Below are positions 7,184-22,954 of a stretch of DNA of 64,000 nt, piece after piece (the stretch's first letter is position 1; each line of letters opens with the position of its first letter). Source of the DNA: Sphingopyxis sp. 113P3 (GTDB taxonomy: Bacteria; Pseudomonadota; Alphaproteobacteria; Sphingomonadales; Sphingomonadaceae); assembly GCF_001278035.1 (NCBI RefSeq), contig NZ_CP009452.1, positions 4,063,501 to 4,127,500 of the forward strand, given 5' to 3'. Below the pieces are notes generated by a model. That model had not been told where the DNA came from, did not search any database, and saw only the letters and a program-made list of their open reading frames with translations. Made by a program: the position numbers and the translations under genes.

Positions 7184-7438
7184 CCCCGGCGGGCGATGCG
7201 GCTCCAATCCGGTTACCCGAATGATATCCATGAAACTGTGACCGCGTATGAACGGCCCTGCGCTGGCAAACGGCTCGAAGGTCAGCACGGCCTGCTTGTT
7301 GGCGCAGCCTTACGCCGGCCTTTGAAGCGGCTCTGCTATCGTCGCCGACGATGCCCTCCCTGGCTTTGCGCACCAAGGCAAGGTTGTTGTCGATCAGAGA
7401 GGTCGCTCTACCTGACGCGGAGACGGCATTCGCCGCGC

Positions 7439-7744
7439 CTAGCCTCGCCAGTGACGGCCCCGGTGATGATGATGCTGTCGCCTCTTCTGGTAGCGCCGTT
7501 CGTATTGATCGCGCCGCTCGAACCGATGAGCGTTGCCGCGATAATAGGGATCGTAGGAACGATAGCCCCGGTCGTGGCCATAAGTGGGGGCGCTGTGCCG
7601 AATGGGCCGGTAATCGCGGTCATGTCCGCGCGGAGCATCATGGCTGCCACTCCAGCCGCCACGATCACCATGATGTTGAGCCATTGCGGTGCCCGGGATC
7701 GCAAATGCGAGCAGCGCCGCCGCGAACTGCACAAATTTTCGCAT
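7439..7744 (-). CDS. Small exported His/Arg/Tyr-rich protein
   Basis: A 101-residue protein starting at ATG 7744, chosen over a start 30 codons upstream because it follows an AAAGGAGAGACAG ribosome site and opens directly into a signal peptide (MRKFVQFAAALLAFAIPGTAMAQ). The mature part is hydrophilic and very rich in His, Arg, Tyr, Gly and Asp, and ends in a KRRQHHHHRGRHWRG tail. Composition suggests a periplasmic metal- or polyanion-binding protein, resembling RcnB-like small proteins in style, but I do not recognise a family. It is last in the minus-strand metal-efflux series, about 160 bases after the DsbA gene. Confidence 0.6.
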   Translation of the reverse strand: MRKFVQFAAALLAFAIPGTAMAQHHGDRGGWSGSHDAPRGHDRDYRPIRHSAPTYGHDRGYRSYDPYYRGNAHRFERRDQYERRYQKRRQHHHHRGRHWRG

Positions 7745-7906
7745 GTCTGTCTCTCCTTTTACGAACCTGCAAACTCCCCCTTCGTCATTGAACGCACTGT
7801 GAATATCGCACCCGAACACGAGCCGGTGGATCACTCGGGCCAGTGCTGCGGCAGGACGAGATGCTGGAGCGGCTCGCTACCCCGTCAAGGGACACCCCGC
7901 TCCGGC

Positions 7907-8551
7907 TCATTGCCCCATCGCCGCGACCGCGGCCTGAACCTTGGCCTCGACCTGTTCGGGGCTCGGCTGGACGAGCATCTCGCCATTGACGAAGAAGGTC
8001 GGGGTGCCCTTGACGCCGACCGCACGCGCGTCGGCAATGTCCTGCTCCATCCAGGCCATTGCATCGGTGGTCGGCATCGCGCGCGCCTTCGCGACATTGA
8101 GGCCGGCCTTCTCGGCCGCGGCCCAGGCACCGTCCATCTTGCCGTCGTGCCAGTCGGGCTGCGCCTCGAGCAGCGCCGCCGTTACGGGCTGGAGCTTGCC
8201 CTGCACGCGCGCGGCTTCGAGGATCACGATCGCCTCGGCCGAGCCGGGATGGAGCGGCAGGTAGCGCATCACGAGACGCACATCCTTGGGATATTTGGCG
8301 ACGATGCCCTTCACCGTCGGATAGAAGGCGCGGCAGGCCTCGCACGAGGGGTCGAAGAATTCGACGATGGTCACCGGCGCATTCTTTGGACCGATGATTG
8401 GAGAGTGCGGACGAATGAGGCTGTCGACCGGCCCCGCCACGACCTTCTTCGTGGGTTCGCCCTCGGCGGTTCCGCTGTAGAGCATCGCGCCGCCGGTGAA
8501 GGCGAGTGCCGAGAGGACAAGCGTGGCAACGACACCGATACGTCTGTTCAT
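7907..8551 (-). CDS. DsbA-family thiol:disulfide oxidoreductase (periplasmic)
   Basis: A 214-residue thioredoxin-fold protein. The start at ATG 8551 overlaps the DsbB stop by four bases (ATGA) and opens into a membrane or signal segment (MNRRIGVVATLVLSALAFTGG). A CEAC active-site pair (EFFDPSCEACRAFYP) and the cis-Pro loop (GVKGTPTFFVNGE) are present. It is the DsbA/Com1-like type that is often anchored in the periplasm and oxidises or isomerises protein cysteines. The paired DsbB directly upstream would reoxidise it. Location in a metal-efflux operon suggests it repairs metal-damaged or Cys-rich exported proteins (inference). Confidence 0.9.
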   Translation of the reverse strand: MNRRIGVVATLVLSALAFTGGAMLYSGTAEGEPTKKVVAGPVDSLIRPHSPIIGPKNAPVTIVEFFDPSCEACRAFYPTVKGIVAKYPKDVRLVMRYLPLHPGSAEAIVILEAARVQGKLQPVTAALLEAQPDWHDGKMDGAWAAAEKAGLNVAKARAMPTTDAMAWMEQDIADARAVGVKGTPTFFVNGEMLVQPSPEQVEAKVQAAVAAMGQ

Positions 8552-8982
8552 GATTTCAGTCTCCTTTGGAAGTTGAGCAAGAGGATAAGGATGAGCGCAA
8601 ACGCGGCCAGCGACAGGAGGGGCAGCGGCACGCCTCCGATTGCCATGCTCTCTCCAGAGCATGACGGGCCGCCGGTACAGGGGACGATCTGGGCCGGAAT
8701 GACGCCGACGTAGAGCAGGCTGTGATAGAAAGCGACGAGACCGCCGCCGAAAGCCAGCGCCAGCCCATAAGGAACGACGGCGCGGTCCGACATGAACGCC
8801 GCGATGCCGAGAATGATCGCGAGCGGAAACATGAAAGCGCGCTGGAACCAGCAGAGATCGCACGGCGCCTGGCCCATGACCTCACCGACGAAGAGGACAG
8901 CTAGGCTCGACAGGAGGGCAATTGCCCAGACCGCGCCGAGCGGACGCCATTTGTGCGGCGCGAGCATCGGAAAGCTCGTCAT
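8548..8982 (-). CDS. DsbB-family quinone-linked disulfide generator
   Basis: A 144-residue inner-membrane protein with about four hydrophobic helices. The first periplasmic loop carries the DsbB redox pair CDLC (APCDLCWFQRAFMFP), and the second has CTGGPSC, corresponding to the second redox pair. The start at ATG 8982 was chosen because it overlaps the preceding SRPBCC gene's stop by four bases; an upstream extension to 9417 is non-homologous shadow sequence. DsbB passes electrons from DsbA to quinones. The pair forms a self-contained disulfide system embedded in the efflux operon. Confidence 0.9.
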   Translation of the reverse strand: MTSFPMLAPHKWRPLGAVWAIALLSSLAVLFVGEVMGQAPCDLCWFQRAFMFPLAIILGIAAFMSDRAVVPYGLALAFGGGLVAFYHSLLYVGVIPAQIVPCTGGPSCSGESMAIGGVPLPLLSLAAFALILILLLNFQRRLKS

Positions 8983-9464
8983 CGCCGACCACCTTTGAAC
9001 TTCGACTTGGGCCGCCGCGGCGGCGATTGCGGCTTGCTGTACTTGGACTTGAGGTAGCTGAGCAGGATGCCGTCGATCGATGCGAGCATCCTTTGAAAGC
9101 TCGTCTGGATGCCGGGAAGCCGGAGCCAGGCAAAAGGTCCGCGGCAGCGATAGCGATGGAGGAATTTGGTCCCTTCCGGCGTCCGGGTCAGGATATAGCT
9201 CTCCTCGAACTGGAGGATGAAGCTCGGCTTTACGTCGAGAATCAGTTCCTCGCCGGAGCGCGCGGAAAGGACCGTCGCGGAGACTTCGAGAAACTTGGGC
9301 TTGTTGGGATCCATTCGCATCGAATAGCGGATCGCGATCGGGTCCTCGGCAAGCCGCTCGATCCGGACATAGGGATTCCAGATCCGGTGGTTCTCGAAAT
9401 CGCCGAGGACCGCCCATATCTGTTCCGGACTATAGGGGAGGTCATGCTCCCGCTCGAACTCCAT
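8979..9464 (-). CDS. SRPBCC (START/polyketide-cyclase fold) protein, copy 1
   Basis: A 161-residue protein starting MEFEREHDLPYSPEQIWAVL, the typical opening of the SRPBCC superfamily (Bet v1-like helix-grip fold), with FENHRIWNPYV matching the family's 'W-P' region. The C-terminal tail is strongly basic (KSKYSKPQSPPRRPKSKFKGGRR). The superfamily binds hydrophobic ligands in a deep pocket; no enzymatic residues can be assigned. It lies 13 bases after the RND pump gene and overlaps dsbB. A second SRPBCC gene lies in the same series at 15433-15903, so the repeat use of this fold looks functional rather than accidental. Confidence 0.8.
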   Translation of the reverse strand: MEFEREHDLPYSPEQIWAVLGDFENHRIWNPYVRIERLAEDPIAIRYSMRMDPNKPKFLEVSATVLSARSGEELILDVKPSFILQFEESYILTRTPEGTKFLHRYRCRGPFAWLRLPGIQTSFQRMLASIDGILLSYLKSKYSKPQSPPRRPKSKFKGGRR

Positions 9465-9477
9465 CAACTTCACTCCT

Positions 9478-12400
9478 CTATCGATCGGCCGCCGGGCTTT
9501 GCCCCGCGCCGATGTCGGTGACGCCCGCAGGCGATGGGTCGGCGTGCGCGCCGCCGGTCGTGAACCAGCGGCGCAGGCGCGGGGCCATCCGGCGCTCGAA
9601 GCCCGCCGCAAGGCTGAAGGACGCCGGTACGATCAGCAGCGTCAGCATCGTCGAAAGGATGAGACCGCCGATCACCGTGACCGCCATCGGCGCGCGCCAT
9701 GCACCGTCGCCGGTGAGCGACAGCGCGGTCGGGATCATGCCCGCGACCATCGCGACCGTGGTCATCAGGATCGGCTGCGCGCGCTTGTGCCCCGCGTCGA
9801 CGATCGCCTCGTCGCGCGGCACGCCGGACGCCATTTCCTCGATCGCAAAATCGACGAGCAGAATGCTGTTCTTGCCGACGATACCGAGCAGCATCAGCAC
9901 CCCGATGAAGACGGGGAGCGACAGCGGATAGCCGGTCAAGAGCAACGCGATCGCACCGCCGAGCGGGGCGAGCAGCAGCGAACCCATGTTGACGAAGGGC
10001 GGGATGATCTTGCGATAGAGCAGGATCAGAACGGCGAGCACGAGGAAGATGCCCGACACCACCGCGATTGCGAAGTTACGCAGCATCTCGGCCTGCCATT
10101 TGGCGCTGCCGAGCACGAGCCGCGTGACGCCGGCGGGAAGCTGCTTGAGCGCGGGCAGCGCCTCGACTTTTTCCATCGCCTGACCCGTCACCAGACCCGG
10201 GGCGAGGTCGGCCCCGATGGTGAGCTGGCGCACCTGATTGGTGCGATTGATCTGGGTCGGGCCGGCGCCAAAGCCGATCTCAGCGACGACCGAGAGCGGC
10301 ACCGTTCCGCCGTTGCGGGTCGGGACCGGCATATTGCGGAGCGTATCGAGCCGCTCGCGCGCGGTTTCCGCGAGCGCGACGCGAACCGGGATTTGCCGAT
10401 CGGATAGCGAGAATTTCGCGCTGTTCTGGTCAATCTCACCAAGCGTCGCGACGCGGATCGACTGGCTGAGGGCCTGTGTCGTCACCCCGAGCTGCGCGGC
10501 GAGCGCAAAGCGCGGGCGAATGACGATCTCGGGGCGCTGAAGATTGCCCTCGACGCGCGGCGAGCGGATTTCCTTCACCTTGGCCATTTCGGCAAGCAGC
10601 CGGTTGCCGACATCTTCAAGCTTCTTCGGGTCGTCGCTGCCGAGTGTGATCGAGATGTCGCGGCTGCTGCCGCCACCGCCGCCATGCTGCGACTGGAAGT
10701 TGATGCGCGCATCGGGAACCGCAGCCAGCCGCGGCGCGCGGTCCTTTTCGAACTCGGTCGAGGTGAGTTCGCGGTCCTTGCGCAATTTCAGATAGACCGT
10801 CGCCGTGCCGACATCGATCCGCGACAAGGCGGATTCGACGAGCGGGTCGCGCTTCATGAGATCGGTCACCTCGTCGGCCACTGCCTCGGTTTGTTCGAGC
10901 GTTGCACCCGGAGCGAGCTGGATTGCGACGCGGCTCGTGTCGGAATCGATCGACGGCTGGAAGGTCATCGGGAGCAGCGAGAAGCTGAAGATGGTCGCGA
11001 AGAGCGCGAGTACCCCGATACCGACGACCCAGAGCCGGTGATCCTTGATGTAGGCGAGCCATTTCCAGCGATCGCCTCGGGCGCGGGCCGCATCGGCGGC
11101 CCTGGCATCGAGGCTCCAGCGCAGCACGCGCATATAGGTGTCGATCAGCGGGCCTTCGCCATGCTTCTGCGGACCCTGCGCGGAGAGAAAATAAGCGGCG
11201 AGCATCGGCGTGATCATGCGCGCGACCGCGAGGCTCATCAGCACCGCCGCGACGACGGTCAGCCCGAAATTCTTGAAATATTGTCCGGCGACCCCCGGCA
11301 TCAGCCCGACGGGCAGGAAGACCGCGACGATCGTCATGGTGGTCGCGAGCACGGCCAGGCCAATCTCGTCGGCGGCGTCGATCGAGGCCTGGTAAGCGGA
11401 TTTGCCCATCCGCATGTGGCGGACGATATTCTCGATCTCGACGATCGCGTCGTCGACGAGGACGCCGGCGACAAGGCTGAGCGCGAGCAGGGTCATCATG
11501 TTGAGCGAGAAGCCCATCAGGTCCATGAAGAGGAAGGTCGGGACCGCCGAGAGCGGGATTGCGAGCGCCGAGATAAGGGTCGCGCGCCAGTCGCGCAGGA
11601 ACAGGAAGACGACGATGACCGCGAGGATCGCGCCCTCGACCATCGCGTTGATCGCCGAATGATATTGGCCCTTGGTATATTCGATATCGCTGAACAGCTC
11701 GGTGAACTTGATCTTGGGGTTTTCCTTCTCGAGCTTGCGCAACTCCTCGACCGCCGCGTCATAGACGGTGACGTCGGAGGCGCCCTTCGCGCGCTCGAAC
11801 CCGAAGGTCAGCACCTGCCGTCCGTCCTGCTTCGAGACCGAGCGCTGCTCGGCGTAGAGGTCCTTGACCTCGGCGATGTCCGCGAGGCGCACGGTGCGGT
11901 TGGTGCCGACCGAGATCAGGGTTTCGCCGAGCGCGTTCGCGCTACTGGCATTGCCGAGGATGCGCACCGCCTGTTCCGATCCAGCGACCTCCATCCGGCC
12001 GCCCGCGGCGTTGACGTTGAGCTGGACGAGCTGGGTGTTCACCGCGGCGGCAGTCAGGCCGTAAGCGCGCATGCGTTCGGGGTTGAGGATGACGCGGATT
12101 TCGCGGCTGACGCCGCCCCGTCGATAGGCGTCGCCCATGCCGGGGACGGCAATCAGCCGCTTGGCGACGACATTATCGACATACCAGCTCAATTCCTCGA
12201 GCGTCATGTCGGTGGCCGAAGCCGACCAATAAGCCAGCGTATTGCCCGAGGTCGACAGGCGGATGACCTGCGGTTCGAGGATGCCGTTCGGCAGGTTGCT
12301 CCTTATCTGGGTGATCTTGTCGCGGATATCGGTGACCGCCCGGTCGATCGGCGTCCCGATCGCGAACTGGACGAAGGTCTGCGACTGGCCCTCGGTGACG

Positions 12401-12657
12401 GTCGAGTTGAGCTCGTCGATCCCCTCGATCGTGCGCACCGCCGCTTCGACGCGCTGGGTGACCTGCGTTTCGAGTTCGGTGGGTGCGGCGCCCGGCTGCG
12501 CGATGATGACGATCGCGCCCGGAAAATCGATGTCGGGATCGCTTTGGACCCCCATCATGAGGAAGGAGACGATCCCCGCGACCGTCAGGCCGAAGAACAT
12601 GACGAGCGGCGGGATCGGGTTCCGGATGGACCAGGCCGAGATATTCTTGAAGTTCAT
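9478..12657 (-). CDS. RND efflux permease (HAE1/AcrB-like), no adjacent adaptor
   Basis: A 1059-residue RND permease with two halves of one plus five membrane helices and two large periplasmic loops. The proton-relay Asp pair is visible in GVLVDDAIVEIENIVRHM, and the N-terminus (MNFKNISAWSIRNPIPPLVM) is typical of AcrB/MexF-like pumps with a variant start. It lacks the HME signature seen in the two CzcA genes here ([10 protein letters not shown]), so drugs, lipids or organic metal complexes are likelier substrates than free cations. It starts 44 bases after the P-type ATPase gene with a GGGGAGAG site. No membrane-fusion or outer-membrane protein adjoins it; it would have to borrow partners or act alone. 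Confidence 0.88.
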   Translation of the reverse strand: MNFKNISAWSIRNPIPPLVMFFGLTVAGIVSFLMMGVQSDPDIDFPGAIVIIAQPGAAPTELETQVTQRVEAAVRTIEGIDELNSTVTEGQSQTFVQFAIGTPIDRAVTDIRDKITQIRSNLPNGILEPQVIRLSTSGNTLAYWSASATDMTLEELSWYVDNVVAKRLIAVPGMGDAYRRGGVSREIRVILNPERMRAYGLTAAAVNTQLVQLNVNAAGGRMEVAGSEQAVRILGNASSANALGETLISVGTNRTVRLADIAEVKDLYAEQRSVSKQDGRQVLTFGFERAKGASDVTVYDAAVEELRKLEKENPKIKFTELFSDIEYTKGQYHSAINAMVEGAILAVIVVFLFLRDWRATLISALAIPLSAVPTFLFMDLMGFSLNMMTLLALSLVAGVLVDDAIVEIENIVRHMRMGKSAYQASIDAADEIGLAVLATTMTIVAVFLPVGLMPGVAGQYFKNFGLTVVAAVLMSLAVARMITPMLAAYFLSAQGPQKHGEGPLIDTYMRVLRWSLDARAADAARARGDRWKWLAYIKDHRLWVVGIGVLALFATIFSFSLLPMTFQPSIDSDTSRVAIQLAPGATLEQTEAVADEVTDLMKRDPLVESALSRIDVGTATVYLKLRKDRELTSTEFEKDRAPRLAAVPDARINFQSQHGGGGGSSRDISITLGSDDPKKLEDVGNRLLAEMAKVKEIRSPRVEGNLQRPEIVIRPRFALAAQLGVTTQALSQSIRVATLGEIDQNSAKFSLSDRQIPVRVALAETARERLDTLRNMPVPTRNGGTVPLSVVAEIGFGAGPTQINRTNQVRQLTIGADLAPGLVTGQAMEKVEALPALKQLPAGVTRLVLGSAKWQAEMLRNFAIAVVSGIFLVLAVLILLYRKIIPPFVNMGSLLLAPLGGAIALLLTGYPLSLPVFIGVLMLLGIVGKNSILLVDFAIEEMASGVPRDEAIVDAGHKRAQPILMTTVAMVAGMIPTALSLTGDGAWRAPMAVTVIGGLILSTMLTLLIVPASFSLAAGFERRMAPRLRRWFTTGGAHADPSPAGVTDIGAGQSPAADR

Positions 12658-12701
12658 CCGCTCTCCCCTTTCCGGTCTCGCCTCGCCGCCGCGTTGGCCT
12701 C

Positions 12702-15242
12702 TCAGGCCGCGCTGCGGTCGCGATAGGCGAGGAGCCGTAGCGCGTTGGCGACCACGACCAGTGTCGAGCCCTCATGCGCGGCCACCGCGGGGCCGATGCC
12801 CAGCCCGAGGATGGTTGCCGGCACGAGCACGACCACGACGCCGAGGCTCACTACGAGATTCTGGCGGATGATCCGCCGCGTCTGCCGGCTGAGCCCGATG
12901 GCGAAGGGCAGATGGGCAAGATCGTCGGCCATGAGCGCGACATCGGCGGTTTCGAGGGCGACGTCCGACCCAGCGGCGCCCATGGCGATGCCGACGGTTG
13001 CGCTCGCCATCGCGGGCGCGTCATTGACCCCGTCGCCCACCATGGCCACCGGCTGCTCGGCCTTGAGATCGCGAATGGCGTCGACCTTCTGATCGGGCAT
13101 CAGGTCGCCCCAGGCCTCGTCGATCCCGACTTCGGCGGCGATCGACTCGGCGACCTTCTGGTGATCGCCCGAGATCATGATCATACGTCTGATCCCGAGC
13201 TCGCGGAGCCTAGCGATCGCCGTGCGCGCCGCTTCGCGCGGCGTGTCCATCAGACCGATCGCGCCCAGATCGCGGTCGCCCATACGGACCACCATCGTCG
13301 TGCGGCCCTGTTCGCGAAGGCCGGCAATCGCCGTCGCCACTTCGTCGCCGATCGGCGCGATGCCGTCGGTCCCGAACATCTCCACCTTTCCGATCTGGAC
13401 AGTCTCGCCTTCGACCTTCGCGGTAACGCCGCGCCCCGTGAGGCTGTTGAGGTCGTCCGCCACCGGCACGCGCGCCGAGGTCAGCATGGCCTCGCCATCG
13501 CGCGCGATCGCGGCGGCAAGCGGATGGTCGCTGAGCCGCTCGACCGCGACGGCGATGCGAAGCAACTCTTCCTTGGGCACGCCGGTAGCGGGCACGACAT
13601 CGGTGATGCGCGGCTTGCCCTCGGTCAATGTACCCGTCTTGTCGAAGGCGAGCGCGGTCAGCGATCCCAGATTCTCGAGAGGCCCGCCGCCTTTCACGAG
13701 CACCCCGCCGCGCGCGGCGCGCGCGACGCCCGAAAGCACAGCGCTCGGCGTCGCGATCGCGAGCGCGCATGGGCTTGCCGCGACGAGGACCGCCATTGCG
13801 CGGTAGAAGCTGTCGCGGAAAGGCTCATCGACGACGACCCAGGCGAAGAGCAGGACGAACACGAGGGCGAGCACGCTCGGCACGAAAATGCGCTCGAACT
13901 TGTCGGTGAAGCGCTGGGTCGGCGACTTCTGCGTTTCCGCCTCGCTCACCATCTTGACGACCTTGGCGAGCGTGGTGTCGGCGGCAAGCCGCGTGACCGC
14001 GATCTCGATCGCGCCATAGCCGTTGATGGTGCCCGCAAAGACACGATATTTCGCATCGAGCCCATCGGGCTTGGCGGCGGCCAGCACCCGGTCCGCCACC
14101 GGTTCCTTGTCGACGGGCACGCTTTCGCCGGTGACGGGCGCCTGATTGACCGCGGTGCGGCCCACTGTCACGAATCCGTCGGCCGGGAGCCGCTCGTTGG
14201 GCTTGACGACGACGGTGTCGCCGATCTGCAGCAGTTCGACCGACACTTCGCGCGTGCTGCCGTCGGCGCTCTTTACGATCGCGGTCTGCGGCGCGAGTTC
14301 GGCGAGCGCCTCGATAGCGCGCTTGGCTCGTCCCATGGCATAATGTTCGAGGGCGTGACCAAGGCTGAAGAGGAAGAGCAGCAGCGCGCCTTCGGCCCAT
14401 GCCCCTAGCGCCGCCGCGCCCGCTGCGGCAACGAGCATGAGCGTGTCGATCTCGAAGCGCTTGAGCCTCAGATTTTCGATCGCTTCGCGGACGGTGAACC
14501 AGCAGCCGAAGCCATAGGCCGCGAGATAGAAGCCGAAGCTGACCCATTCGGGAGCGACGCCCGATTTCTCGATGGCGAAGCCGATGCCGAGGACGAGGCC
14601 GCAGAGGAGCGCAAAGATCAGCTCGGTGCGCTCACCGAATATTCCGCCATGATCATGACCATGATCATGATCATCCGATCCCTTGTGGCCATGTTTATGG
14701 TCCGGCCCATGGGCATGATCGGGGCCGTGATCATGGCCATCGTCACCATGGATGTGGCCTTCTTGGGCCGGGACAGCCGCGGCGACGGCGGCCGATTTCC
14801 GGGTAACGCCCATATCCAAAAGTATCTTTCTGATCGTCTCGATGGAGGTTTCCGAGCGCTCGAACTCGGCGCGCAACGTCCCCGCCGCGCCGACTTCGGC
14901 CTCGATCACGCCGGGAATTTCGCGAAGGCGCAGCCCGATCGTCCGCGCACGCCGGGCGTGGCCGACACCTTCGAGATCGTTCCAGAAGAGATGCTGATAT
15001 CGACCGGTGAGTACGGCGCCGGCGCTGCGCGCCAGCTGGCGCACCCGTTCGAGCGGGAGTATGTCCGGCCGATAGTGAATGCAGAGCTGCGGCGGCGAAC
15101 CGTCGCTTGAGCGAACAACATGGACCTTGTCGACGCCGTCACGTCCTTCGAGTTCGCTCGTGAGGCGCGCGACGCAGCGGTCGGCGGTATCGGCGACCTC
15201 GGGAAGGAGAAGCGGAATATCGAGCCGCAACTGGTCACTCAT
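12702..15242 (-). CDS. P1B-4-type heavy-metal translocating ATPase (Co/Zn/Cd-type)
   Basis: An 846-residue P-type ATPase. Visible motifs are TGES (371-374, actuator), SPC (490-492) in the transport helix, DKTGT (D534 phosphorylated), the MVGDGVNDAPAMA hinge, and HEGST (823-827) in the last helix. SPC plus HEGST defines subgroup P1B-4, associated with Co2+, Zn2+ or Fe2+ export, rather than the CPC-type Cd/Zn or Cu pumps. The N-terminus has two HMA-like folds without CxxC motifs, and a His/Asp-rich linker (about 163-198) that is a likely metal-binding module. It is preceded by a long hairpin (15309-15353). Confidence 0.93.
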   Translation of the reverse strand: MSDQLRLDIPLLLPEVADTADRCVARLTSELEGRDGVDKVHVVRSSDGSPPQLCIHYRPDILPLERVRQLARSAGAVLTGRYQHLFWNDLEGVGHARRARTIGLRLREIPGVIEAEVGAAGTLRAEFERSETSIETIRKILLDMGVTRKSAAVAAAVPAQEGHIHGDDGHDHGPDHAHGPDHKHGHKGSDDHDHGHDHGGIFGERTELIFALLCGLVLGIGFAIEKSGVAPEWVSFGFYLAAYGFGCWFTVREAIENLRLKRFEIDTLMLVAAAGAAALGAWAEGALLLFLFSLGHALEHYAMGRAKRAIEALAELAPQTAIVKSADGSTREVSVELLQIGDTVVVKPNERLPADGFVTVGRTAVNQAPVTGESVPVDKEPVADRVLAAAKPDGLDAKYRVFAGTINGYGAIEIAVTRLAADTTLAKVVKMVSEAETQKSPTQRFTDKFERIFVPSVLALVFVLLFAWVVVDEPFRDSFYRAMAVLVAASPCALAIATPSAVLSGVARAARGGVLVKGGGPLENLGSLTALAFDKTGTLTEGKPRITDVVPATGVPKEELLRIAVAVERLSDHPLAAAIARDGEAMLTSARVPVADDLNSLTGRGVTAKVEGETVQIGKVEMFGTDGIAPIGDEVATAIAGLREQGRTTMVVRMGDRDLGAIGLMDTPREAARTAIARLRELGIRRMIMISGDHQKVAESIAAEVGIDEAWGDLMPDQKVDAIRDLKAEQPVAMVGDGVNDAPAMASATVGIAMGAAGSDVALETADVALMADDLAHLPFAIGLSRQTRRIIRQNLVVSLGVVVVLVPATILGLGIGPAVAAHEGSTLVVVANALRLLAYRDRSAA

Positions 15243-15308
15243 GATGCCATCCTTTTCTCTTGGCGATCGGCATTGCGATCGGGGCGCATGTTAAACGCAC
15301 GGCAGGAT

Positions 15309-15353
15309 GAGGTGCGGGAGCCTCTGCGGGATGCGACCCGGCTCCCGCACCTC
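15309..15353 (-). terminator. 14-bp perfect intercistronic hairpin before the ATPase gene
   Basis: The arms GAGGTGCGGGAGCC (15309-15322) and its exact complement (15340-15353) enclose a 17-base loop. It lies between the upstream SRPBCC gene (ending 15433) and the ATPase start (15242). There is no T-run after it on the minus strand, so it may act as an RNA-stability element or partial terminator that sets different expression levels within the operon, rather than as a classical terminator. Confidence 0.6.
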
Positions 15354-15432
15354 CCTTACCGCCGGAGATCCCTGCCCGTGGTGAGGGGGGCGAATGAGAG
15401 GGGCCTCCGACGGCCAGGTTTCGAAACTAAAA

Positions 15433-15903
15433 TCATGCGCGCCGTCCGCTCGGCCGCGCGTAGCGGGACTGGACGGTGGTGCGGCGGAAATGCTTTTCGA
15501 GCGCTGCGTTCGAGCGGCGCAGGAAAACCGAGCAGGCACGGCGCAGAAAGGGATAGCCGAGCCAGGAGAAGAACCCGCGGCAGTCGAGCCGGTGGGTCAC
15601 CTCGACACCCTGACCGAGCTTTTCGAGCCGGTAGCTTTCCTCGATGACGAGCAGACCGCGCAGGCCCGTCCGCCATGAAAAACCCGAGAGCCAGTCGAGA
15701 CCGGTGATCCGGCCCTCGGCCGACAGCTCGGGGCCTCGCGGCCCGCGCGGGGAGTAGACATAGTCCAGTCGCTCTTCATCACCGGGGCGATCGGTGAAGC
15801 GGAGCGTCGGATGCCAGTCACCGTACCGCTCGATGTCGACGATCAGCCGCCATACCCGCCCGATCGGGACCGGCAGGCGGAGCGAGGAGCCTACCGAAAA
15901 CAT
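15433..15903 (-). CDS. SRPBCC family protein, copy 2
   Basis: A 156-residue SRPBCC-superfamily protein beginning MFSVGSSLRLPVPIGRVWRL, with DIERYGDWHPTL as the 'W-P' motif region and a basic tail. It resembles the SRPBCC gene at 8979 in layout (VEVTHRLDCRGFFSWLGYPFLRRA versus HRYRCRGPFAWLRLPGIQTS), which suggests an old duplication. Function is unknown beyond hydrophobic-ligand binding as a family trait. It lies between the DUF190 and P1B-4 ATPase genes. Confidence 0.75.
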   Translation of the reverse strand: MFSVGSSLRLPVPIGRVWRLIVDIERYGDWHPTLRFTDRPGDEERLDYVYSPRGPRGPELSAEGRITGLDWLSGFSWRTGLRGLLVIEESYRLEKLGQGVEVTHRLDCRGFFSWLGYPFLRRACSVFLRRSNAALEKHFRRTTVQSRYARPSGRRA

Positions 15904-15968
15904 CGGCCGCCCCCTCGCTCCGGCAAGCTGGTCCGCGACGCAGGCCGGGGACCTGCGCCGCGGTGGAA

Positions 15969-15985
15969 ACCGGCAATTTGCCGGT
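15969..15985 (-). terminator. Hairpin overlapping the DUF190 stop codon
   Basis: Perfect inverted repeat ACCGGCAA / TTGCCGGT (15969-15985) abutting the DUF190 stop. On the minus strand it is followed by TTTCC. It could be a weak intrinsic terminator or attenuator separating czcCBA-DUF190 from the SRPBCC-ATPase part. The T-run is short, so the call is tentative. Confidence 0.4.
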
Positions 15986-16329
15986 CAGCTCTGGACATCG
16001 GGAGGCTCCGCGGCGGATTTCCCGCCGAGGATGTCGACCGCTTCGAGCGTGATTAGCCCGACGTCCGGTATTTCGGTCAGCTGCGCCGCAAAGTCGCGGA
16101 GCCGCTGCTCCTCGTCGATGATCTCGATCACGACCGCCCGGTCATTCTCCAGCGCATGCTTGCGATGGAGATGCGCCGAGCGTCCGAAACCGAGGACCGC
16201 TTCGAGGACGGTCACCCCCGCCAGCTTTTGCTGGCGGGCGAGTTCGGCAATGAACTCGAAGACACGTTGATCGCCGAAGAAGGCAGACTCGTCGGTATAG
16301 ACGCGCAAGAGCTTGGACGCTTTTTGCAT
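15985..16329 (-). CDS. DUF190 domain protein (PII-like fold)
   Basis: A 114-residue protein with the DUF190 layout: KLLRVYTDESAFFGDQRVFE, GVTVLEAVLGFGRSAHLHR, ENDRAVVIEIIDEE and VGLITLEAVDIL. DUF190 proteins have a ferredoxin-like fold related to PII signalling proteins and are often encoded next to transporters. It starts 9 bases after the CzcA stop, behind a GAGAGGATC ribosome site, so it probably modulates or senses the state of that pump (inference from position). Confidence 0.85.
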   Translation of the reverse strand: MQKASKLLRVYTDESAFFGDQRVFEFIAELARQQKLAGVTVLEAVLGFGRSAHLHRKHALENDRAVVIEIIDEEQRLRDFAAQLTEIPDVGLITLEAVDILGGKSAAEPPDVQS

Positions 16330-16338
16330 GATCCTCTC

Positions 16339-19300
16339 CTATTCAGTGACCGGCGTGCCGGCCGGTTCGGATTTGCGTTTCATGAAACCGGGCTGCCAGT
16401 TCGACCCGAGTAAGACCTTGGCGATCGCGGGCAGGACGAGAAGCGTCAGGATAGTCGCCGCGATGAGGCCGCCGATGACGGTGGTCGCGAGCGGCTTCTG
16501 CACTTCGGCGCCGGTTCCGGTCGCGATCGCCATCGGCACGAAGCCGATCGCGGGCACGAAACCGGTCATGATCACCGCGCGCATCTTCTCGGTCATGCCC
16601 TCACGGATTGCCTCCGTGAGCGGGACGTCATTCTCGAGCCGTTCTCGGATCGCCGTCATCACGACGAGACCGTTGAGCACCGCAACACCTGCGAGACAGA
16701 TGAAGCCCACCGCCGCAGACACGGAGAAGTTGATCCCGGTAAGCGCCAGCGTGAATACCCCGCCCGCGAGACCCAGAGGGACCGCGAGGAACACGGCGGT
16801 TGCGCGGCCGAAGGTGCCGAGCGCCATGTAGAGCAGGATGAAAATGCCCGCGAAGCAGAGCGGCACCACGATGGAGAGCCGCTTCGATGCGGCCTGCAGG
16901 CTTTCGAACTGCCCGCCCCATTCGAGATAGTAGCCCGCCGGGAGCTTCACATTAGCGATCTTCGCCTGCGCTTCTGCCACGAAGGACCCCGCGTCGCGGC
17001 CTTCGAGGTTCACCTGCACGACGACGCGCCGCTTGCCATTCTCGCGGCTGATCTGGTTGAGCCCTTCGGTCAGCCGGATCTGCGCCACCTGCGCGAGCGG
17101 TATCTGCCCGCGATTGCCGCCTTCCGAGGGAAGGAGGACAGGAAGCGCGCGGATGTCGTCGAGATTGACGCGGGTGGCATCGGGCACGCGCACGGTGATG
17201 TCGAACCGGCGGTCGCCTTCATAAAGCAGGCCGGATTCGCGGCCGCCGAGTGCGGCCGACACCGTGTCGGCGACTTCCTGCACCGACAGGCCGTAGCGCG
17301 CGATCGCATTGCGATCGAGCTTCACGTCGAGCGTCGGAGCGCCACCGACCTGGTCGGCCTTGACGCTACCCGCACCCGGAATGCCCTGGAGCACGCGCAC
17401 CATCTCGTTCGCGGCGAGCGACATCTTGTCGAGGTCGTCCCCGTAGAGTTTGATGGCGACGTCTCCGCGCACACCCGCGATCAGTTCGTTGAAACGAAGC
17501 TGGATCGGCTGACTAACCTCGTAAAGCTGGCCGAGCTGGCCCCCGGCGGCCTTCTCGATGCGCTCAACGACATCGGCCTTCGAATTGACGTCCGCCGGCC
17601 ACTGGTCCTGCGGTTTCAGGATCACGAAGCCGTCCGAGATGTTTGGCGGCATCGGGTCGGTCGCCACCTCGGCTGTACCCGTTTTCGAGAACATCAGCTC
17701 GACTTCGGGCAGGCTTGAGATCGCCGTCTCGACGTTGCGCTGCATAGCCAATGACTGTTCGAGGCTCACTGAAGGCACGCGCGTCGAGGCGAGCGCCATA
17801 TTCTTCTCGTCGAGCTGCGGAATGAATTCCGAGCCCAGCAGTCCGAAGGCCGGGATGGCAAGGACGAAGAAGGCAAAGCCGCCGGCGATGAAAGCCCAAG
17901 GCTTTGCGAGCGCCTTATCGAGCAGCGGGAGATAGCGCTCCTTCGACTTGCGGATTGCCCAGACTTCCTTCTCGGCAACCTTGCCGCGGATCATCAGCGC
18001 GACGAGCGCCGGGACCAGCGTGATGGCAAGGATGAAGGCGGCGACGAGCGCGAGCATGATGGTGATGGCCATCGGCGAGAAGGTCTTGCCCTCGACGCCC
18101 GTGAACATCAGCAGCGGCGCGAAGGCGAGCAGGATGATCGCCTGCCCGAAGACGGTCGGCTTGATCATCTCCTGGCTGGCACGCATCGTCTCCTCGAGGC
18201 GCTCGCGAAGGTTGAGCAATCTCCCTTCATGTTCCTGCCGGTGCGCCAGTCTGGCGAGGCAGTTTTCGATGATGATCACCGCCCCGTCGACGATCAGACC
18301 GAAGTCGAGCGCGCCGAGGCTCATCAGGTTGCCCGGAACCCGGAAGGCGTTCATTCCCATCGCCATCATCAGGAAGGAGAAGGGGATAACGAGCACCGCG
18401 ATGATCGCGGCACGCCAGTTGCCGAGCAGGAAGAAGAGCGCGGCCGCCACGAGCAGCGCGCCTTCGGTCAGGTTCTTTTCAACCGTCCCGACGGTGGCGT
18501 TCACCAGCTTGGCGCGGTCGAGCACCACCTTCACTTCGACGCCGGGCGGCAGGGTTTTCGACACCTGCGCAATCTTCGCCGATACATCCTCCGCAACAGT
18601 GCGGCTGTTCTGCCCGATCAGCATGAGCACTGTGCCGATGACCGCCTCCTTGCCGTTCATGCTGCCCGCACCGGTTCTGAGGTCGCCGCCGATTTTCACA
18701 TTGGCGAGCTGTCCGACCGTGACGGGCACGCCGCCGCGCGTCGCGACGACGGCGTTGCGGATTTCGTCGACCGAGCGCACGCGCGCATCGACGCGCACGA
18801 GATAGGCTTCGCCTGCCCGATTGTAGTAGTTGGCACCGACCGCGAGGTTGGCGCGTTCCAGGGCTTCGCCAAGTTCGCTATAGGAAATACCGTAGCTGGT
18901 GAGGCGGGTCGGATCGGGCTCGACCACGAAGGTCTTGGCATAGCCGCCGATCGAATCGACGCCGGCGACGCCGCCGACAGACTTGAGCTGCGGGCTGACG
19001 ATCCAGTCCTGAACCGTGCGAAGATAGCCCGATTTGGCGATCTCGTCGGTGAGGATATCGCCCTCGGGGGTCAGGTAGCTGCCGTCCGGCTGCCAGCCGG
19101 GTTGGCCCGCGACCTTCTTGGCGCCCTTCCCGTCGGGGTTCTTGTAGCCCACGGTGTACATGACGACCTCGCCGAGACCCGTCGTCACGGGACCGATCTG
19201 CGGCTGGGCCCCATCGGGAAGATTCTCGCCCGCCTGGAGAAGCCGTTCGCCCACCTGCTGGCGCGCGAAATAGAGGTCGGTTTCATCAGTGAAGATTGCC

Positions 19301-19581
19301 GTCACCTGGCTGAATCCGTTGCGCGAGATCGAGCGTGTCGTCTCGAGCCCCGGAATGCCGGCGAGCGAGATTTCGATCGGGTAGGTTACGAGCTTCTCGA
19401 TTTCGACCGGCGAAAGACGCGGATCGATCGTGTTGATTTGCACCTGCTTGTTGGTGATGTCGGGAACCGCGTCGATCGGCAGCTTGGTCAGCTGCCATAC
19501 GCCGAGCCCGGCTATCACGAGGAAGAGAAAGAGTACCGCCCAGCGCGCGCGGACGGATAGCGCCATCAGTTTCGCGATCAC
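16339..19581 (-). CDS. czcA: CzcA/CusA-family heavy-metal RND efflux permease, system 1
   Basis: A 1080-residue HME-RND pump. The N-terminal helix is followed by [19 protein letters not shown], and the proton-relay helix reads [18 protein letters not shown], both diagnostic of the CzcA/CusA group. The frame starts at GTG 19581, three bases after the CzcB stop, with GGAGG inside the CzcB 3' end; ATG 19566 is an alternative without a well-spaced site. It drives metal export (Co/Zn/Cd or Ni type) through the CzcCBA tripartite complex from periplasm to outside. A loop insertion (KNPDGKGAKKVAGQPGWQPDG) near residue 165 distinguishes it from system 2. Confidence 0.95.
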   Translation of the reverse strand: MIAKLMALSVRARWAVLFLFLVIAGLGVWQLTKLPIDAVPDITNKQVQINTIDPRLSPVEIEKLVTYPIEISLAGIPGLETTRSISRNGFSQVTAIFTDETDLYFARQQVGERLLQAGENLPDGAQPQIGPVTTGLGEVVMYTVGYKNPDGKGAKKVAGQPGWQPDGSYLTPEGDILTDEIAKSGYLRTVQDWIVSPQLKSVGGVAGVDSIGGYAKTFVVEPDPTRLTSYGISYSELGEALERANLAVGANYYNRAGEAYLVRVDARVRSVDEIRNAVVATRGGVPVTVGQLANVKIGGDLRTGAGSMNGKEAVIGTVLMLIGQNSRTVAEDVSAKIAQVSKTLPPGVEVKVVLDRAKLVNATVGTVEKNLTEGALLVAAALFFLLGNWRAAIIAVLVIPFSFLMMAMGMNAFRVPGNLMSLGALDFGLIVDGAVIIIENCLARLAHRQEHEGRLLNLRERLEETMRASQEMIKPTVFGQAIILLAFAPLLMFTGVEGKTFSPMAITIMLALVAAFILAITLVPALVALMIRGKVAEKEVWAIRKSKERYLPLLDKALAKPWAFIAGGFAFFVLAIPAFGLLGSEFIPQLDEKNMALASTRVPSVSLEQSLAMQRNVETAISSLPEVELMFSKTGTAEVATDPMPPNISDGFVILKPQDQWPADVNSKADVVERIEKAAGGQLGQLYEVSQPIQLRFNELIAGVRGDVAIKLYGDDLDKMSLAANEMVRVLQGIPGAGSVKADQVGGAPTLDVKLDRNAIARYGLSVQEVADTVSAALGGRESGLLYEGDRRFDITVRVPDATRVNLDDIRALPVLLPSEGGNRGQIPLAQVAQIRLTEGLNQISRENGKRRVVVQVNLEGRDAGSFVAEAQAKIANVKLPAGYYLEWGGQFESLQAASKRLSIVVPLCFAGIFILLYMALGTFGRATAVFLAVPLGLAGGVFTLALTGINFSVSAAVGFICLAGVAVLNGLVVMTAIRERLENDVPLTEAIREGMTEKMRAVIMTGFVPAIGFVPMAIATGTGAEVQKPLATTVIGGLIAATILTLLVLPAIAKVLLGSNWQPGFMKRKSEPAGTPVTE

Positions 19582-19584
19582 GGT

Positions 19585-20754
19585 TTATTCCTCCTCGCCC
19601 GCGCCCTTGCCGAGTTCGGCCTTGAGCAGGAATGCGTTCTTGGTCGCGACGATCTGGCCCGGCTTCAGCCCGGAGAGGATTTCGACACGGCCCGCGCTGC
19701 GCTGGCCGACGGTGACCTGCTGCGCGCGGAAGCCGTCCTTCGTGCGGACGAACACAACGTCGCGCCCTTCGAGCGTCTGGAGCGCTTCGTCGGCGATCAC
19801 GATCCGTGCCGGCCCACCGGTTTCGGCGCCGCGGCCCGGAAGCAGACGCACCCGGACTGCAAGGCCCGGCTGCAGCGCTCCGGGCACATCGAGCACGGCA
19901 GTCGCCGATCGCGTGTCGCCGGAAAGTCCGGGGGTAACAGCCCGCACACGGGCATCGATCGTCCGCCCGTCGGGAAGTTCGATGATCGCGCGGTCTCCGG
20001 GCGAGAGCCGCTGTGCATCGGCCGGACCGACTGCGGCCTCGATCTGCACCTTGCTGGGATCGGCAACGCGGAACAATTCGGTTTCGGGCTGGACGAAGGC
20101 GCCCAGACTGGCGTTCTCCGCCGTAATCCGCCCTGATATCGGGCTGGCCACGATTACGCTGCTGCCATCGCGCGTAACCTGCGCGGCGCTCGCTGCGGCA
20201 CGCGCGCGTTGCGCCTCCGCTGCGGCGGCCGCCGCTTCGGCTTGCGCCTGCTCGTAATCGACCCGCGCCGACACCTTTTGATCGAACAGCGTCTTCTCGC
20301 GATGGAGATTCTTCTGCGCAAGGGTCGAGCGCGCATCGGCGGCAATCCGTTCGGCCGCGATCTGGGCCGCGTCGCGGCTCTGCACGATCGCGATCGTCTC
20401 GCCGGCGCTGACCGGATCGCCTAACCGCTTGAAGAGGCGTGTGACCGCACCGCCCGCGCGGGCGGTGACGATCGCCTCGCCGCTCGGTGCGGCGGTAACG
20501 GTCGCTTGCGAGATGATTTCCGAACCGAGTCCGCCGGCGCCGATCGTCTCGACGCCGATCTCGGCGGCCTTGATCGCATCGGGCGCGATGGCGAGGCTGC
20601 TCGGAAGGGCTTCGCTCGCCGCTTCCTTTTCGCCTTCGGCCGCCGGTGCGGCGGCCGGGTCGGCGGTGCAACGTGCAACGCCGAAGCCCGTGACGGCGGC
20701 GAGTATCATGGCGCCCGCGACAGTGCCGAGGAGACGCTTGTCCTTGGTGATCAT
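19585..20754 (-). CDS. czcB: CzcB-like periplasmic adaptor, system 1
   Basis: A 389-residue membrane-fusion protein with an N-terminal hydrophobic anchor (LGTVAGAMILAAVTGFGVA), a barrel-sandwich lipoyl half (GGAVTRLFKRLGDPVSAGETIAIV), a helical hairpin rich in Ala and Gln (about 110-190), and a beta-barrel ending in SGLKPGQIVATKNAFLLKAELGKG. It links the inner-membrane CzcA to the outer-membrane CzcC. It lies 3 bases before czcA and about 110 bases after czcC. Confidence 0.93.
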   Translation of the reverse strand: MITKDKRLLGTVAGAMILAAVTGFGVARCTADPAAAPAAEGEKEAASEALPSSLAIAPDAIKAAEIGVETIGAGGLGSEIISQATVTAAPSGEAIVTARAGGAVTRLFKRLGDPVSAGETIAIVQSRDAAQIAAERIAADARSTLAQKNLHREKTLFDQKVSARVDYEQAQAEAAAAAAEAQRARAAASAAQVTRDGSSVIVASPISGRITAENASLGAFVQPETELFRVADPSKVQIEAAVGPADAQRLSPGDRAIIELPDGRTIDARVRAVTPGLSGDTRSATAVLDVPGALQPGLAVRVRLLPGRGAETGGPARIVIADEALQTLEGRDVVFVRTKDGFRAQQVTVGQRSAGRVEILSGLKPGQIVATKNAFLLKAELGKGAGEEE

Positions 20755-20863
20755 ATTCTATCTCCGCTGTTGATGCGGTTCGCGCGCCGACCGGCGGCGC
20801 ACCCCTGTTGACTTGGAAGAACGGCAGCGAATGCGCCCCCGTCCACTGGAAGGCTCGGCGCGC

Positions 20864-22171
20864 TCATGGCTGATGATCCGCATCGCCGTCGGCGGCGGCC
20901 TGGCGCGAGAGGATGGCGCGGGCTTCGGCCCGGGCCTGGCGCGCCGCGATCAGCTCGGCCTGCGTTGCCGCATAAGCCTGCTGCGCGTCGATATATTCGA
21001 CGAGCGATGACTTGCCGGCGCGGTAGCTGAGTTCGGCGAGCCGGACACTTTCGCGCGCCTGCTCGATGCCGCTGCCCTCAAGCGCCGCGAGGCGAGCTTG
21101 GGCGGCGTCGAGTTCGGCCTGGGCGTTGGCGATTTTCGCCTCGGCGTTGACGACCGCATTCTCCCGCCGCGCGATGGCGGCAGCAACGTCGGACTTGGCG
21201 GCCGAGATGTTGCCGCGGTTGCGATCGAAGATCGGGAGCGGCACCGAGACATTCGCAATGAGCGCGCGATCACCTGTATCGCGAAGCTGCCGCACCCCGA
21301 AGCCAACCGATGGGTCGAGGCGACCGTCGGCGTGCTGCCCCTGGAGGCGAGCTTCGGCGATGAGGCGGTCGGTCTCGGCAAGCCGCACGTCGAGCGTGGC
21401 CAGCGAGTCAACCGAGGCAGGCATCACCCACAGGTCGCCTTCGACCAGTTCGGCCGGAGCAACCGAGCTGCCGAGAAGCGCTGCCAGCGAACGGCGCGCC
21501 GTCCGTTCCTCGGCCTCGGCGGTGCGCAGTTCGGCGGTTGCCTGGACCAGCGCCGCGTTGGCACGGAAGGCCCGCAGCGGCGGCTCGTTCCCGGTGTCGA
21601 CCATTGCCTGCGCCACGCGGACGAGTTCGCGAGCGCGCGCTTCATTCTCGCGCGCGAGCGCCAGACTGTCGCGGGCCGCGAGCGCGGTCGCGAACTGGTT
21701 ACGAACCTCGAGCGCGAGATCTGCGCGGGCAATCTCAAGCCGATATTGCGCGGCCAGAAACTCGGCGTCGGCGAGCGTCATGCGCGCGCGGCGGCGCCCG
21801 CCGATATCGAGACGCTGATTGACCGAGACCGTCGTTTCGAGACCATTCAGACCCGAGTAGGGGCCAGTGCCTGCAAAATTCTCGACATCGACGTTAAGGA
21901 TGGGGTTGAAGCGATAGCCCGCCTGACGCTGGCGACCGCGCGCGGCCTCCACTTCGGCTTCGGCGGCAACCACGCGCGGCGAGCGCGCGTCGGCCTCCTC
22001 CATCGCCTGGGCGAGGGACAATCGAGCGGGAAGCGGGCCGGTACGCACGGCCTCGCCTGCGGAAGAAGGCGGTCCCACCAGCTCCGTCGCTGCCGACTGG
22101 GCAGCGGCGGGCGCGGAATTTGCGCCTGCAACGAGCGCCACGATACTCGAGGCGACAACTATGGATTTCAT
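20864..22171 (-). CDS. czcC: CzcC-like TolC-family outer-membrane channel, system 1
   Basis: A 435-residue outer-membrane efflux protein. A signal peptide (MKSIVVASSIVALVAGANSAPAAAQ) precedes two repeats of long amphipathic helices with LSLAQAMEEADARSPRVVAAEAEVEAARG and VSVPLPIFDRNRGNISAAKSD, the standard OEP-family landmarks. It ends with a His-containing tail (AADGDADHQP). It is first of the czcCBA trio in transcription order. Confidence 0.92.
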   Translation of the reverse strand: MKSIVVASSIVALVAGANSAPAAAQSAATELVGPPSSAGEAVRTGPLPARLSLAQAMEEADARSPRVVAAEAEVEAARGRQRQAGYRFNPILNVDVENFAGTGPYSGLNGLETTVSVNQRLDIGGRRRARMTLADAEFLAAQYRLEIARADLALEVRNQFATALAARDSLALARENEARARELVRVAQAMVDTGNEPPLRAFRANAALVQATAELRTAEAEERTARRSLAALLGSSVAPAELVEGDLWVMPASVDSLATLDVRLAETDRLIAEARLQGQHADGRLDPSVGFGVRQLRDTGDRALIANVSVPLPIFDRNRGNISAAKSDVAAAIARRENAVVNAEAKIANAQAELDAAQARLAALEGSGIEQARESVRLAELSYRAGKSSLVEYIDAQQAYAATQAELIAARQARAEARAILSRQAAADGDADHQP

Positions 22172-22236
22172 GAAAAGGAGACTCCTGACGTTTCCAGGGA
22201 GAAGCGCACGCGAAGGGCGCGCGCAGACCTAGAGCG

Positions 22237-22599
22237 TCAGGCGATTGGAGGGCGGAACGTCCCGATGTAGGCGACGGGCGGCAAGGCGGCCGTCAGGATG
22301 CGCGTATGCGCTTCAGGGGCAGGCGTTTCGGTCGCTGCCGAAAGCGTTTCCGCCGGGACGCCCGAATGGTGGCCATGGCAACCATGAGCGGCGGCAGGCA
22401 CCTGCTGCTTTTCGCCGGGCGACGATTTTTTCTTGTCGGGCTCGGCGCTTTCGGTAGCCGGCGCACTCACGCAGCCCGCTTCGATCGCCGCGACAAAAAG
22501 GCTCGCCTCGGCCCGATCCTCGGTCGCATGCGCGAGCGATCCTGCAACCGTTCCGGATGCAAGGAGAAAGGTCAGCAAGAGGAGGATTACCCGTCGCAT
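22237..22599 (-). CDS. Small exported protein with His/Cys cluster upstream of czcC
   Basis: A 120-residue protein with a signal peptide (MRRVILLLLTFLLASGTVAGSLAHA) and a central HGCHGHH metal-ligand cluster in a Pro/Ala/Glu-rich background, ending RPPIA. I do not recognise a Pfam family. A similarly built protein (23469-23807) precedes the divergent TolC gene, so each czc operon opens with a small exported His-rich protein. A periplasmic metal-capturing role is inference from composition and position. Confidence 0.7.
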   Translation of the reverse strand: MRRVILLLLTFLLASGTVAGSLAHATEDRAEASLFVAAIEAGCVSAPATESAEPDKKKSSPGEKQQVPAAAHGCHGHHSGVPAETLSAATETPAPEAHTRILTAALPPVAYIGTFRPPIA

Positions 22600-22954
22600 T
22601 GGAACCGGCCCCTAGCATCGAAATAGCGCGATGAAAAGTAGAAGATTTTCAATCAACTTCGGCGGCACTATTCGAACCCCCGAAAGGATGCTGTAATGTT
22701 ATCTCATGATTGCAACCAAGGCGTGTATCCGTCTTAGAAATACTTATTACACCGCCTAGAGGAACAGGATATCCGTCGAACAACCGGGCGTTAAGCACAA
22801 TAGTGCTACGATTGTCTTTCAATCTTAGTTCCGGCCTTACGCTATTGCTTCTATCCTTTTTTGTACTGGCCCGCGCACGGGCGGCGGGATTCGTGCCGGA
22901 CAGGTCGGTAAATCGGAAATCTCGCATTGAGGCGGCGAACGGCAACATGAGGGC
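22600..22954. promoter_or_regulatory. AT-richer divergent intergenic region between the two czc operons
   Basis: These 355 bases are lower in GC than their surroundings and carry no gene I can support (a 99-codon minus frame and an 82-codon plus frame overlap here and neither looks like protein). On the minus strand TTGATT (22656-22651) is followed by a TGAAAA-N8-TTTTCA dyad (22632-22651), which could be the promoter/operator of the minus-strand operon, but the -10 is poor. Confidence 0.35.

Follow-up and report, generated by a model that had tools for sequence, protein, structure and literature searches.

The closest described counterpart of the locus considered here is that of Cupriavidus metallidurans, in which the CzcCBA efflux pump is combined with the CzcP pump. 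We analyzed a 64,000-nt stretch (the window) of the 4.66-Mb genome of Sphingopyxis sp. 113P3, which carries on its minus strand, from position 22171 down to 7907, the gene run czcC-czcB-czcA-DUF190-SRPBCC1-P1B-4 ATPase-RND-SRPBCC2-dsbB-dsbA. This run has in common with the C. metallidurans system an HME-type RND tripartite pump and a P1B-4 ATPase with a CzcP-like N-terminal part; it differs in that both belong to a single co-directional run, which also has a DUF190 gene, two SRPBCC genes, a Dsb pair, and a second RND permease, and in that no czcN, czcD, or czcRS was recognized within the run. The cluster is a variant of the known CzcCBA-plus-CzcP kind of metal-efflux system, with modules that have different histories, and the SRPBCC proteins are its new part: a lineage-specific START-like accessory family whose association with metal-export genes is firm. 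Taken as a whole, the cluster is likely a layered metal-resistance operon, in which SRPBCC, Dsb, and RND additions accompany a CzcCBA/CzcP-like core in the roles proposed below.

The CzcCBA and P1B-4 ATPase core

CzcA lies above the curated CusA/CzcA cut-off (Table 1), and its adaptor (czcB) and outer-membrane partner (czcC) are encoded in the same run. CzcB reached 137 bits against RND_mfp (cut-off 95) and 208.6 bits against the narrower CzcB/NccB model, which is under that model's cut-off of 319.3. In the ATPase, the motifs SPC and HEGS stand at residues 490 and 823; an SPC in the metal-path helix and an HEG(S/G) near the end are the marks of the P1B-4 group. Its best solved relative is 7qbz (E 3.5e-248, residues 186-843), a CoaT-type P1B-4 ATPase. 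The bodies of the two proteins are alike, and the window ATPase is extended at its N terminus by a long region that includes a CzcP-like domain (residues 2-199 match the CzcP N-terminal domain, 4u9r) and a His-rich stretch containing 13 His in 55 residues. Together, the CzcA score, the ATPase motifs, and the solved relatives therefore indicate that CzcCBA is combined here with a CzcP-like pump. Judging from their families, Zn, Cd, and Co are the probable substrates of both: the ATPase would move them from the cytoplasm to the periplasm, and CzcCBA would then carry the periplasmic metal out.

SRPBCC proteins accompany metal-export genes

A profile built from 35 metal-linked SRPBCC members was searched in 397 Sphingomonadaceae genomes, and the 77 best rows were counted, rows below 43 bits being left uncounted. 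A clear gap separates 64 places scoring 115-197 bits (44 genomes, 22 genera) from the remainder at 90 bits and less. When these were compared with the 92 P1B-4 places found in the same genomes at E up to 1e-200, 52 of the 64 high scorers were within 10 kb of a P1B-4 place and on the same strand. The remaining 12 were opened, and 11 proved to be near czcA and/or a P1B-type ATPase gene, some of them clipped by contig ends; the twelfth (in genome G376, locus L135) is accompanied by a CPC-type P1B (copper) ATPase and CopC/CopD-like and MerR-like open reading frames (ORFs), named from sequence, so the subfamily is not tied to Czc alone. All 64 high-scoring proteins are thus encoded no more than 10 kb from metal-export genes, and much of the same gene order recurs in other genera, which is more than chance would give. 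Two further czcCBA-SRPBCC-P1B-4 operons are present in the Sphingopyxis sp. 113P3 genome itself (L133, G000:C1:4172000-4190000; L140, G000:C2:198000-217000).

Of the 13 rows below 100 bits, two are extra copies in operons already counted, and none of the other 11 has a P1B-4 place within 10 kb. Five of these 11 (L141-L145), opened over 17-19 kb, had no czc or P1B-4 match; G081 was viewed over 1.5 kb on each side (L035), and G288, G284, G189:C1:1304731, G320:C1:876558 (11 kb from a P1B-4 place, on the other strand), and G320:C3 were left unopened. Beyond the family, no protein of at least 100 bits was found outside the window's own genome in a sample of 385 Alphaproteobacteria genomes holding few of its own family (best, 82 bits), and none of the 28 matches fetched from it, with up to 1.5 kb on each side, had czcA or a P1B-4 gene; an RND gene adjoins one of them. 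In that locus (L177), a weaker SRPBCC relative (~62 bits) lies directly before an RND gene whose product is 32% identical to the window RND. On plasmids, SRPBCC1 or SRPBCC2 matched 23 records, of which 12 were opened, and in 10 the SRPBCC gene lies inside a czcA and/or P1B-4 run. Plasmid L082 retains, just upstream of its SRPBCC gene, a 58-residue stretch 90% identical to the window P1B-4 ATPase, and plasmid L081 (Acinetobacter) has a MerR-type regulator and no annotated metal gene within 7 kb. No link between SRPBCC and czc was found in the open-licence papers searched, and in the excerpted text of an account of czcCBA in Blastomonas (PMC9505733) the terms Dsb, P-type, and polyketide do not occur.

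Small genes recur as partners of these operons: zf-TFIIB (PF13453), lipoprotein-like proteins without a Pfam match, mini-CDF, and DUF305 in L044, L051, and L084-L092, and mini-CDF, zf-TFIIB, or ZIP-like genes in L133 and L140.

Two old SRPBCC paralogs with a putative conserved pocket

Both window proteins pass the Polyketide_cyc2 family (PF10604) cut-off. The helix-grip fold is seen in the SRPBCC2 model alone (AlphaFold2; predicted local distance difference test [pLDDT] in Table 1), and a fold search returned the broad superfamily without a specific ligand. START/Bet v1-like SRPBCC proteins such as MSMEG_0129 (5z8o) and the TcmN aromatase/cyclases are 10-14% identical to the window proteins, which differ from them by their metal-operon context and by a basic tail that is common to members of the subfamily.

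On a tree of 35 aligned sequences, position before or after the ATPase gene clusters: one branch, with SRPBCC1, holds members encoded after czcA/DUF190 and before the P1B-4 gene, and another, with SRPBCC2, holds members encoded after the P1B-4 gene. Three of the 35 rows are without a place label, and L082 is labeled by its P1B-4 remnant. The alignment (A1) leaves out L081, L029, L030, and L035, the last three of which have no czc or P1B-4 match within 1.5 kb. SRPBCC1 and SRPBCC2 are old paralogs; a recent tandem duplication is ruled out by the tree.

Our best guess is that the SRPBCC proteins bind a hydrophobic ligand at the inner-membrane surface and so support the exporters. They would be cytoplasmic and attach through the basic tail to the membrane, whose inner face is acidic; their pocket, with its near-invariant Glu and invariant His, would bind the ligand, supporting or gating the exporters. 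A more ambitious and rather unlikely version would make them a new class of exporter accessory subunit, in which a lipid- or quinone-loaded form at the inner face binds and switches CzcA and the CzcP-type ATPase, with one paralog per side; export would then be coupled to the lipid or redox state of the membrane, and the dsb-linked SRPBCC2 would also couple it to periplasmic disulfide formation.

The same conserved residues raise another reading, that the SRPBCC proteins are metallochaperones handing pocket-bound Zn or Cd to CzcA or the P1B-4 ATPase. They do track these two exporters, and the invariant His and near-invariant Glu are on neighboring strands (35-row alignment, SRPBCC2 model), but a pair of ligands is little for a metal site, these two are the only Cys, His, Asp, or Glu positions at or near invariance in the 35 aligned rows, the Cys at 107 of SRPBCC2 is replaced by another residue in many members, and P1B-4 loci without SRPBCC exist; we regard metallochaperones as unlikely. 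A metal-binding site shared in the SRPBCC pocket is likewise not favored, because only one His and one Glu are conserved.

Several points weigh against the layered-operon reading and against ligand-binding exporter partners within it. An SRPBCC gene is found within 10 kb of 44 of the 92 P1B-4 places and is missing from the other 48, so it is not required for such a pump; five of the SRPBCC-free loci were searched again with the profile at full sensitivity, and the best E was 0.46. Because metal-linked members were used to build the profile, the association applies to the subfamily and not to SRPBCC proteins at large, and many rows of ~124 bits are near-copies, not independent cases. L050, L055, and L083 lie after an ATPase gene yet fall outside the SRPBCC2 branch. 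The SRPBCC1 model (pLDDT 57.9) is unusable, the pocket-facing orientation of the Glu and His is suggested by strand alternation, and the part given to the Dsb pair in metal resistance is drawn by analogy from other species. Czc operons are textbook metal resistance, though a START-like protein stands near nearly half of the Sphingomonadaceae P1B-4 genes, and the SRPBCC genes are a concrete, testable set for a role in metal export.

A metal-linked dsbB-dsbA module

DsbB passes PF02600 (40.3 bits, cut-off 22.1) and has CDLC as its CxxC, and DsbA passes both PF13462 and PF01323. Among solved chains, DsbA matches ScsC 4gxz at E 7.4e-10, with 3gyk and 7rgv scoring higher. In common with the Scs system, the operon has a metal-linked DsbA-like thioredoxin, and ScsC chains are among the best solved relatives of this protein; unlike in Scs, it is paired with a DsbB-type oxidase, and no scsABCD neighbors were recognized in the run. 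A separate DsbB is encoded elsewhere in the genome (104 bits, versus 41 bits for the operon copy).

The DsbA clade was found in 11 of the 397 genomes at E up to 1e-20. Nine of them have an SRPBCC gene directly before dsbB in a metal operon; in the other two, a CDF-type gene lies nearby (G246) or no match to the metal query set was obtained (G255). DsbA also matches 252 plasmid records, from which eight were chosen by hand and nine drawn evenly for opening. Annotated metal genes (CDF, P-type ATPase, SCO, PCuAC, ars, and cadmium transporter in the even sample) lie within 4 kb in all eight hand-chosen plasmids and in eight of the even sample, and within 6 kb in the ninth. In the even sample, dsbB and dsbA overlap by 4 bases in eight plasmids, and the one without this overlap has no annotated dsbB. 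Hosts include other Alphaproteobacteria and a Pseudomonas. In 16 of the plasmid stretches opened (~6-9 kb each), the dsb genes, or dsbA alone in one case, have no annotated SRPBCC neighbor; two of these plasmids do have an SRPBCC operon, at distances of ~17 and ~40 kb. These plasmid and genome contexts indicate that dsbB-dsbA forms an independent module linked to metals, which in the window is joined to SRPBCC2.

The junction itself could be read differently, with SRPBCC2 serving DsbB, for example by handling ubiquinone, since some superfamily members (Coq10) bind quinone. The ATGA overlap of SRPBCC2 and dsbB suggests translational coupling, and the arrangement with SRPBCC directly before dsbB, seen in those nine genomes, occurs on one plasmid as well. 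Against this, the close SRPBCC2 relatives L043, L044, L047, and L092 have no adjoining dsb genes (although the L092 plasmid has a dsb pair ~17 kb away), and the 16 plasmid stretches carry Dsb genes with no annotated SRPBCC beside them. We find a DsbB helper very doubtful and keep to SRPBCC2 as a putative exporter partner.

For the Dsb pair, the proposed role would be to sustain disulfide formation in the periplasm when cysteines are occupied by thiophilic metals. In Burkholderia cepacia, according to an excerpt of PMC11253441 that cites Hayashi 2000, loss of DsbA-DsbB lowered tolerance to Cd and Zn; the common point is such a pair tied to Cd/Zn tolerance, and the window pair differs in being a second one, placed in a metal operon of a genome that encodes another DsbB at a separate site. 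With a metal-linked DsbB-DsbA pair, this old link between disulfides and tolerance to Cd and Zn can be tested in a natural context. By analogy with a suggestion in the excerpted text of PMC10304878, that DsbA/DsbB could re-oxidize periplasmic Cu(I), the window pair could alternatively have that role.

The dsbB-dsbA plasmid islands (L224, L225, and L227-L233) often also have genes for SCO, PCuAC, an L,D-transpeptidase or transglutaminase-like cysteine peptidase, an M23 peptidase, or lspA; these envelope enzymes may be spare, metal-tolerant copies.

An optional RND permease and independent assortment of the modules

The downstream RND permease had been described in an earlier note on this DNA as a HAE1-type pump of drug- or lipid-type appearance, lacking an adaptor and an outer-membrane partner. 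Its score is indeed drug-type over metal-type (RND_permease_2, 610 bits; CusA/CzcA, 303 bits), but it stays under every curated NCBIfam cut-off, the drug-type ones included (NF033617, 610 of 1250 bits; TIGR00915, 408 of 940 bits), and passes ACR_tran (PF00873, 692 bits) only, which makes it HAE1-like and not a filed HAE1 member. No adaptor gene adjoins it, but an adaptor and an outer-membrane gene are in the same cluster, beside the metal-type pump.

The RND was searched in 21 relatives, on plasmids, and in the loci opened. Of 24 genome_contigs loci, 22 have it next to SRPBCC2, in some cases as a fragment at a contig end, and two (L063 and L064) lack it. No RND match lies between the ATPase and SRPBCC2 genes in the loci of other genera opened, and among all loci opened the cassette was seen only in Sphingopyxis-type ones; on plasmids (656 records), no match has at least 60% identity, the best among the matches listed being 44%. 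A paralog (~65/58% identity) occurs in all 13 same-genus genomes searched, the own genome included, and the operon copy in four of the 13; with E limited to 1e-150, no paralog was found in eight genomes of other families. The own-genome paralog begins 36 bp after an adaptor gene. With ~98% protein identity against ~75% identity at four-fold sites, the operon RND shows the pattern of purifying selection. Its kinship to the core adaptor-RND pair and this selection together suggest that it probably borrows the adaptor of the core paralog; with that adaptor and a TolC-type channel, it would export an organic substrate. A decaying remnant is not favored, as protein identity exceeds four-fold-site identity and the listed copies have no internal stop.

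The earlier note had also suggested that the SRPBCC, Dsb, and RND products could act together on an envelope lipid or thiol that metals have damaged. The SRPBCC fold can bind hydrophobic ligands and Dsb enzymes act on thiols, which fits such a set, and the genes all point in one direction. Co-occurrence in other genomes was borne out for the SRPBCC proteins, which are near CzcA/P1B-4 genes across the 22 genera; the parts of the SRPBCC-dsbB-dsbA-RND combination recur too, but most SRPBCC loci opened in other genera have neither dsb nor RND, so that there is no constant set, and no lipid or thiol repair enzyme was recognized in the cluster. Because SRPBCC, dsb, and RND assort independently, with RND missing from two of the 24 genome_contigs loci, a single lipid- or thiol-handling machine is not supported, and we hold it to be highly improbable beside the layered operon.

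Cluster layout and the SRPBCC1-ATPase gap

The features of the cluster are given in Table 1. The Pfam search used starts for SRPBCC2, DsbB, and DsbA that are a few codons or more upstream of the final starts.

Table 1. Features of the metal-resistance cluster, in order of transcription
Feature	Position in window	Strand	Evidence
czcC, outer-membrane factor	20864..22171	-	PF02321 OEP, 149 bits
czcB, periplasmic adaptor	19585..20754	-	PF16576 and RND_mfp above cut-off
czcA, heavy-metal RND pump	16339..19581	-	TIGR00914, 1426 bits (cut-off 701)
DUF190 protein	15985..16329	-	PF02641
SRPBCC1	15433..15903	-	PF10604, 34.4 bits (cut-off 27.4); tree
Intergenic element, two strong predicted hairpins	15243..15432	-	Fold z -3.66; inverted repeat
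CzcP/CoaT-like P1B-4 ATPase, His-rich N-terminal region	12702..15242	-	7qbz, 4u9r; SPC, HEGS
HAE1-like RND permease, optional cassette	9478..12657	-	PF00873, 692 bits; drug-type score above metal-type
SRPBCC2, basic tail	8979..9464	-	PF10604, 36.5 bits (cut-off 27.4); AlphaFold2 model, pLDDT 80.4; tree
dsbB (BdbC-like), CxxC at 41-44	8548..8982	-	PF02600, 40.3 bits
dsbA-like thioredoxin with CEAC, ScsC/BdbD-like	7907..8551	-	PF13462, PF01323; ScsC chains among best solved relatives
Small secreted-looking His/Arg-rich ORF, membership uncertain	7439..7744	-	162 bp downstream of dsbA

The earlier note had covered the downstream half only (7439-15903). All the genes that it named are present there, co-directional on the minus strand, and its reading of them as a metal-efflux operon is supported; the CzcCBA half, however, lies upstream of 15903, where DUF190, czcA, czcB, and czcC extend the cluster to 22171 on the same strand. 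Its several 4-base overlaps come down to two, both ATGA (SRPBCC2/dsbB and dsbB/dsbA), the other junctions in that half being 13-190 bp: 13 bp for RND-SRPBCC2, 44 for ATPase-RND, and 190 for SRPBCC1-ATPase. Further upstream, the spacings are 81 bp (DUF190-SRPBCC1) and 9 bp (czcA-DUF190).

The 190-nt gap has 90% mean column identity over 11 Sphingopyxis-type sequences; four-fold sites of the neighboring genes are mostly 59-74% identical to the window, a different measure that allows only a rough comparison. It includes a predicted hairpin, AGGTGCGGG...CCCGCACCT, whose exact inverted repeat occurs once in the own genome. The same repeat is found in the same gap of L044-L046 with a loop of another length and an altered base pair within the stem, and the whole gap of these loci folds at z -2.04 only. 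No Rfam match was obtained at E up to 1 over 7300-23900, and we would guess at a regulatory or processing role. Locus L058 (3574-4226) is diverged from the window in czcA-SRPBCC1 and nearly 100% identical to it from the ATPase on, a jump which indicates that the operon halves recombine near this element.

This recombination joint between SRPBCC1 and the ATPase gene, the independent assortment of the modules, and type IV secretion genes nearby would also fit a chance assembly, in which unrelated genes were collected in a metal-resistance island and the SRPBCC, Dsb, and RND genes are passengers. SRPBCC places are nevertheless clustered on the tree, the nine genes compared all show a higher identity in protein than at four-fold sites (dsbB least clearly), and the 64/64 association with metal-export genes is hard to square with passengers; we judge chance assembly quite unlikely and prefer the layered operon.

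Surrounding region

The ORF at 7439-7744 has no Pfam or NCBIfam match and is 72-77% identical in most Sphingopyxis-type loci (74% in L041). Upstream of czcC, a small His/Cys-containing, secreted-looking ORF (22237-22599) is likewise without a Pfam match; its place resembles that of czcI. The region 23015-36671 holds a divergent second RND set (OEP, adaptor, and ACR_tran pump), DUF3703, two CDF-like genes, a cytochrome c-FTR1 fusion, and arsenic-cluster-like ORFs, named partly by eye. On the minus strand, positions 36917-52640 encode type IV secretion components (TrbI, VirB8, TrbL/VirB6, VirB4-like, T2SSE, and a coupling protein) and a DUF3363 relaxase, and the metal region may lie on an integrative conjugative element.

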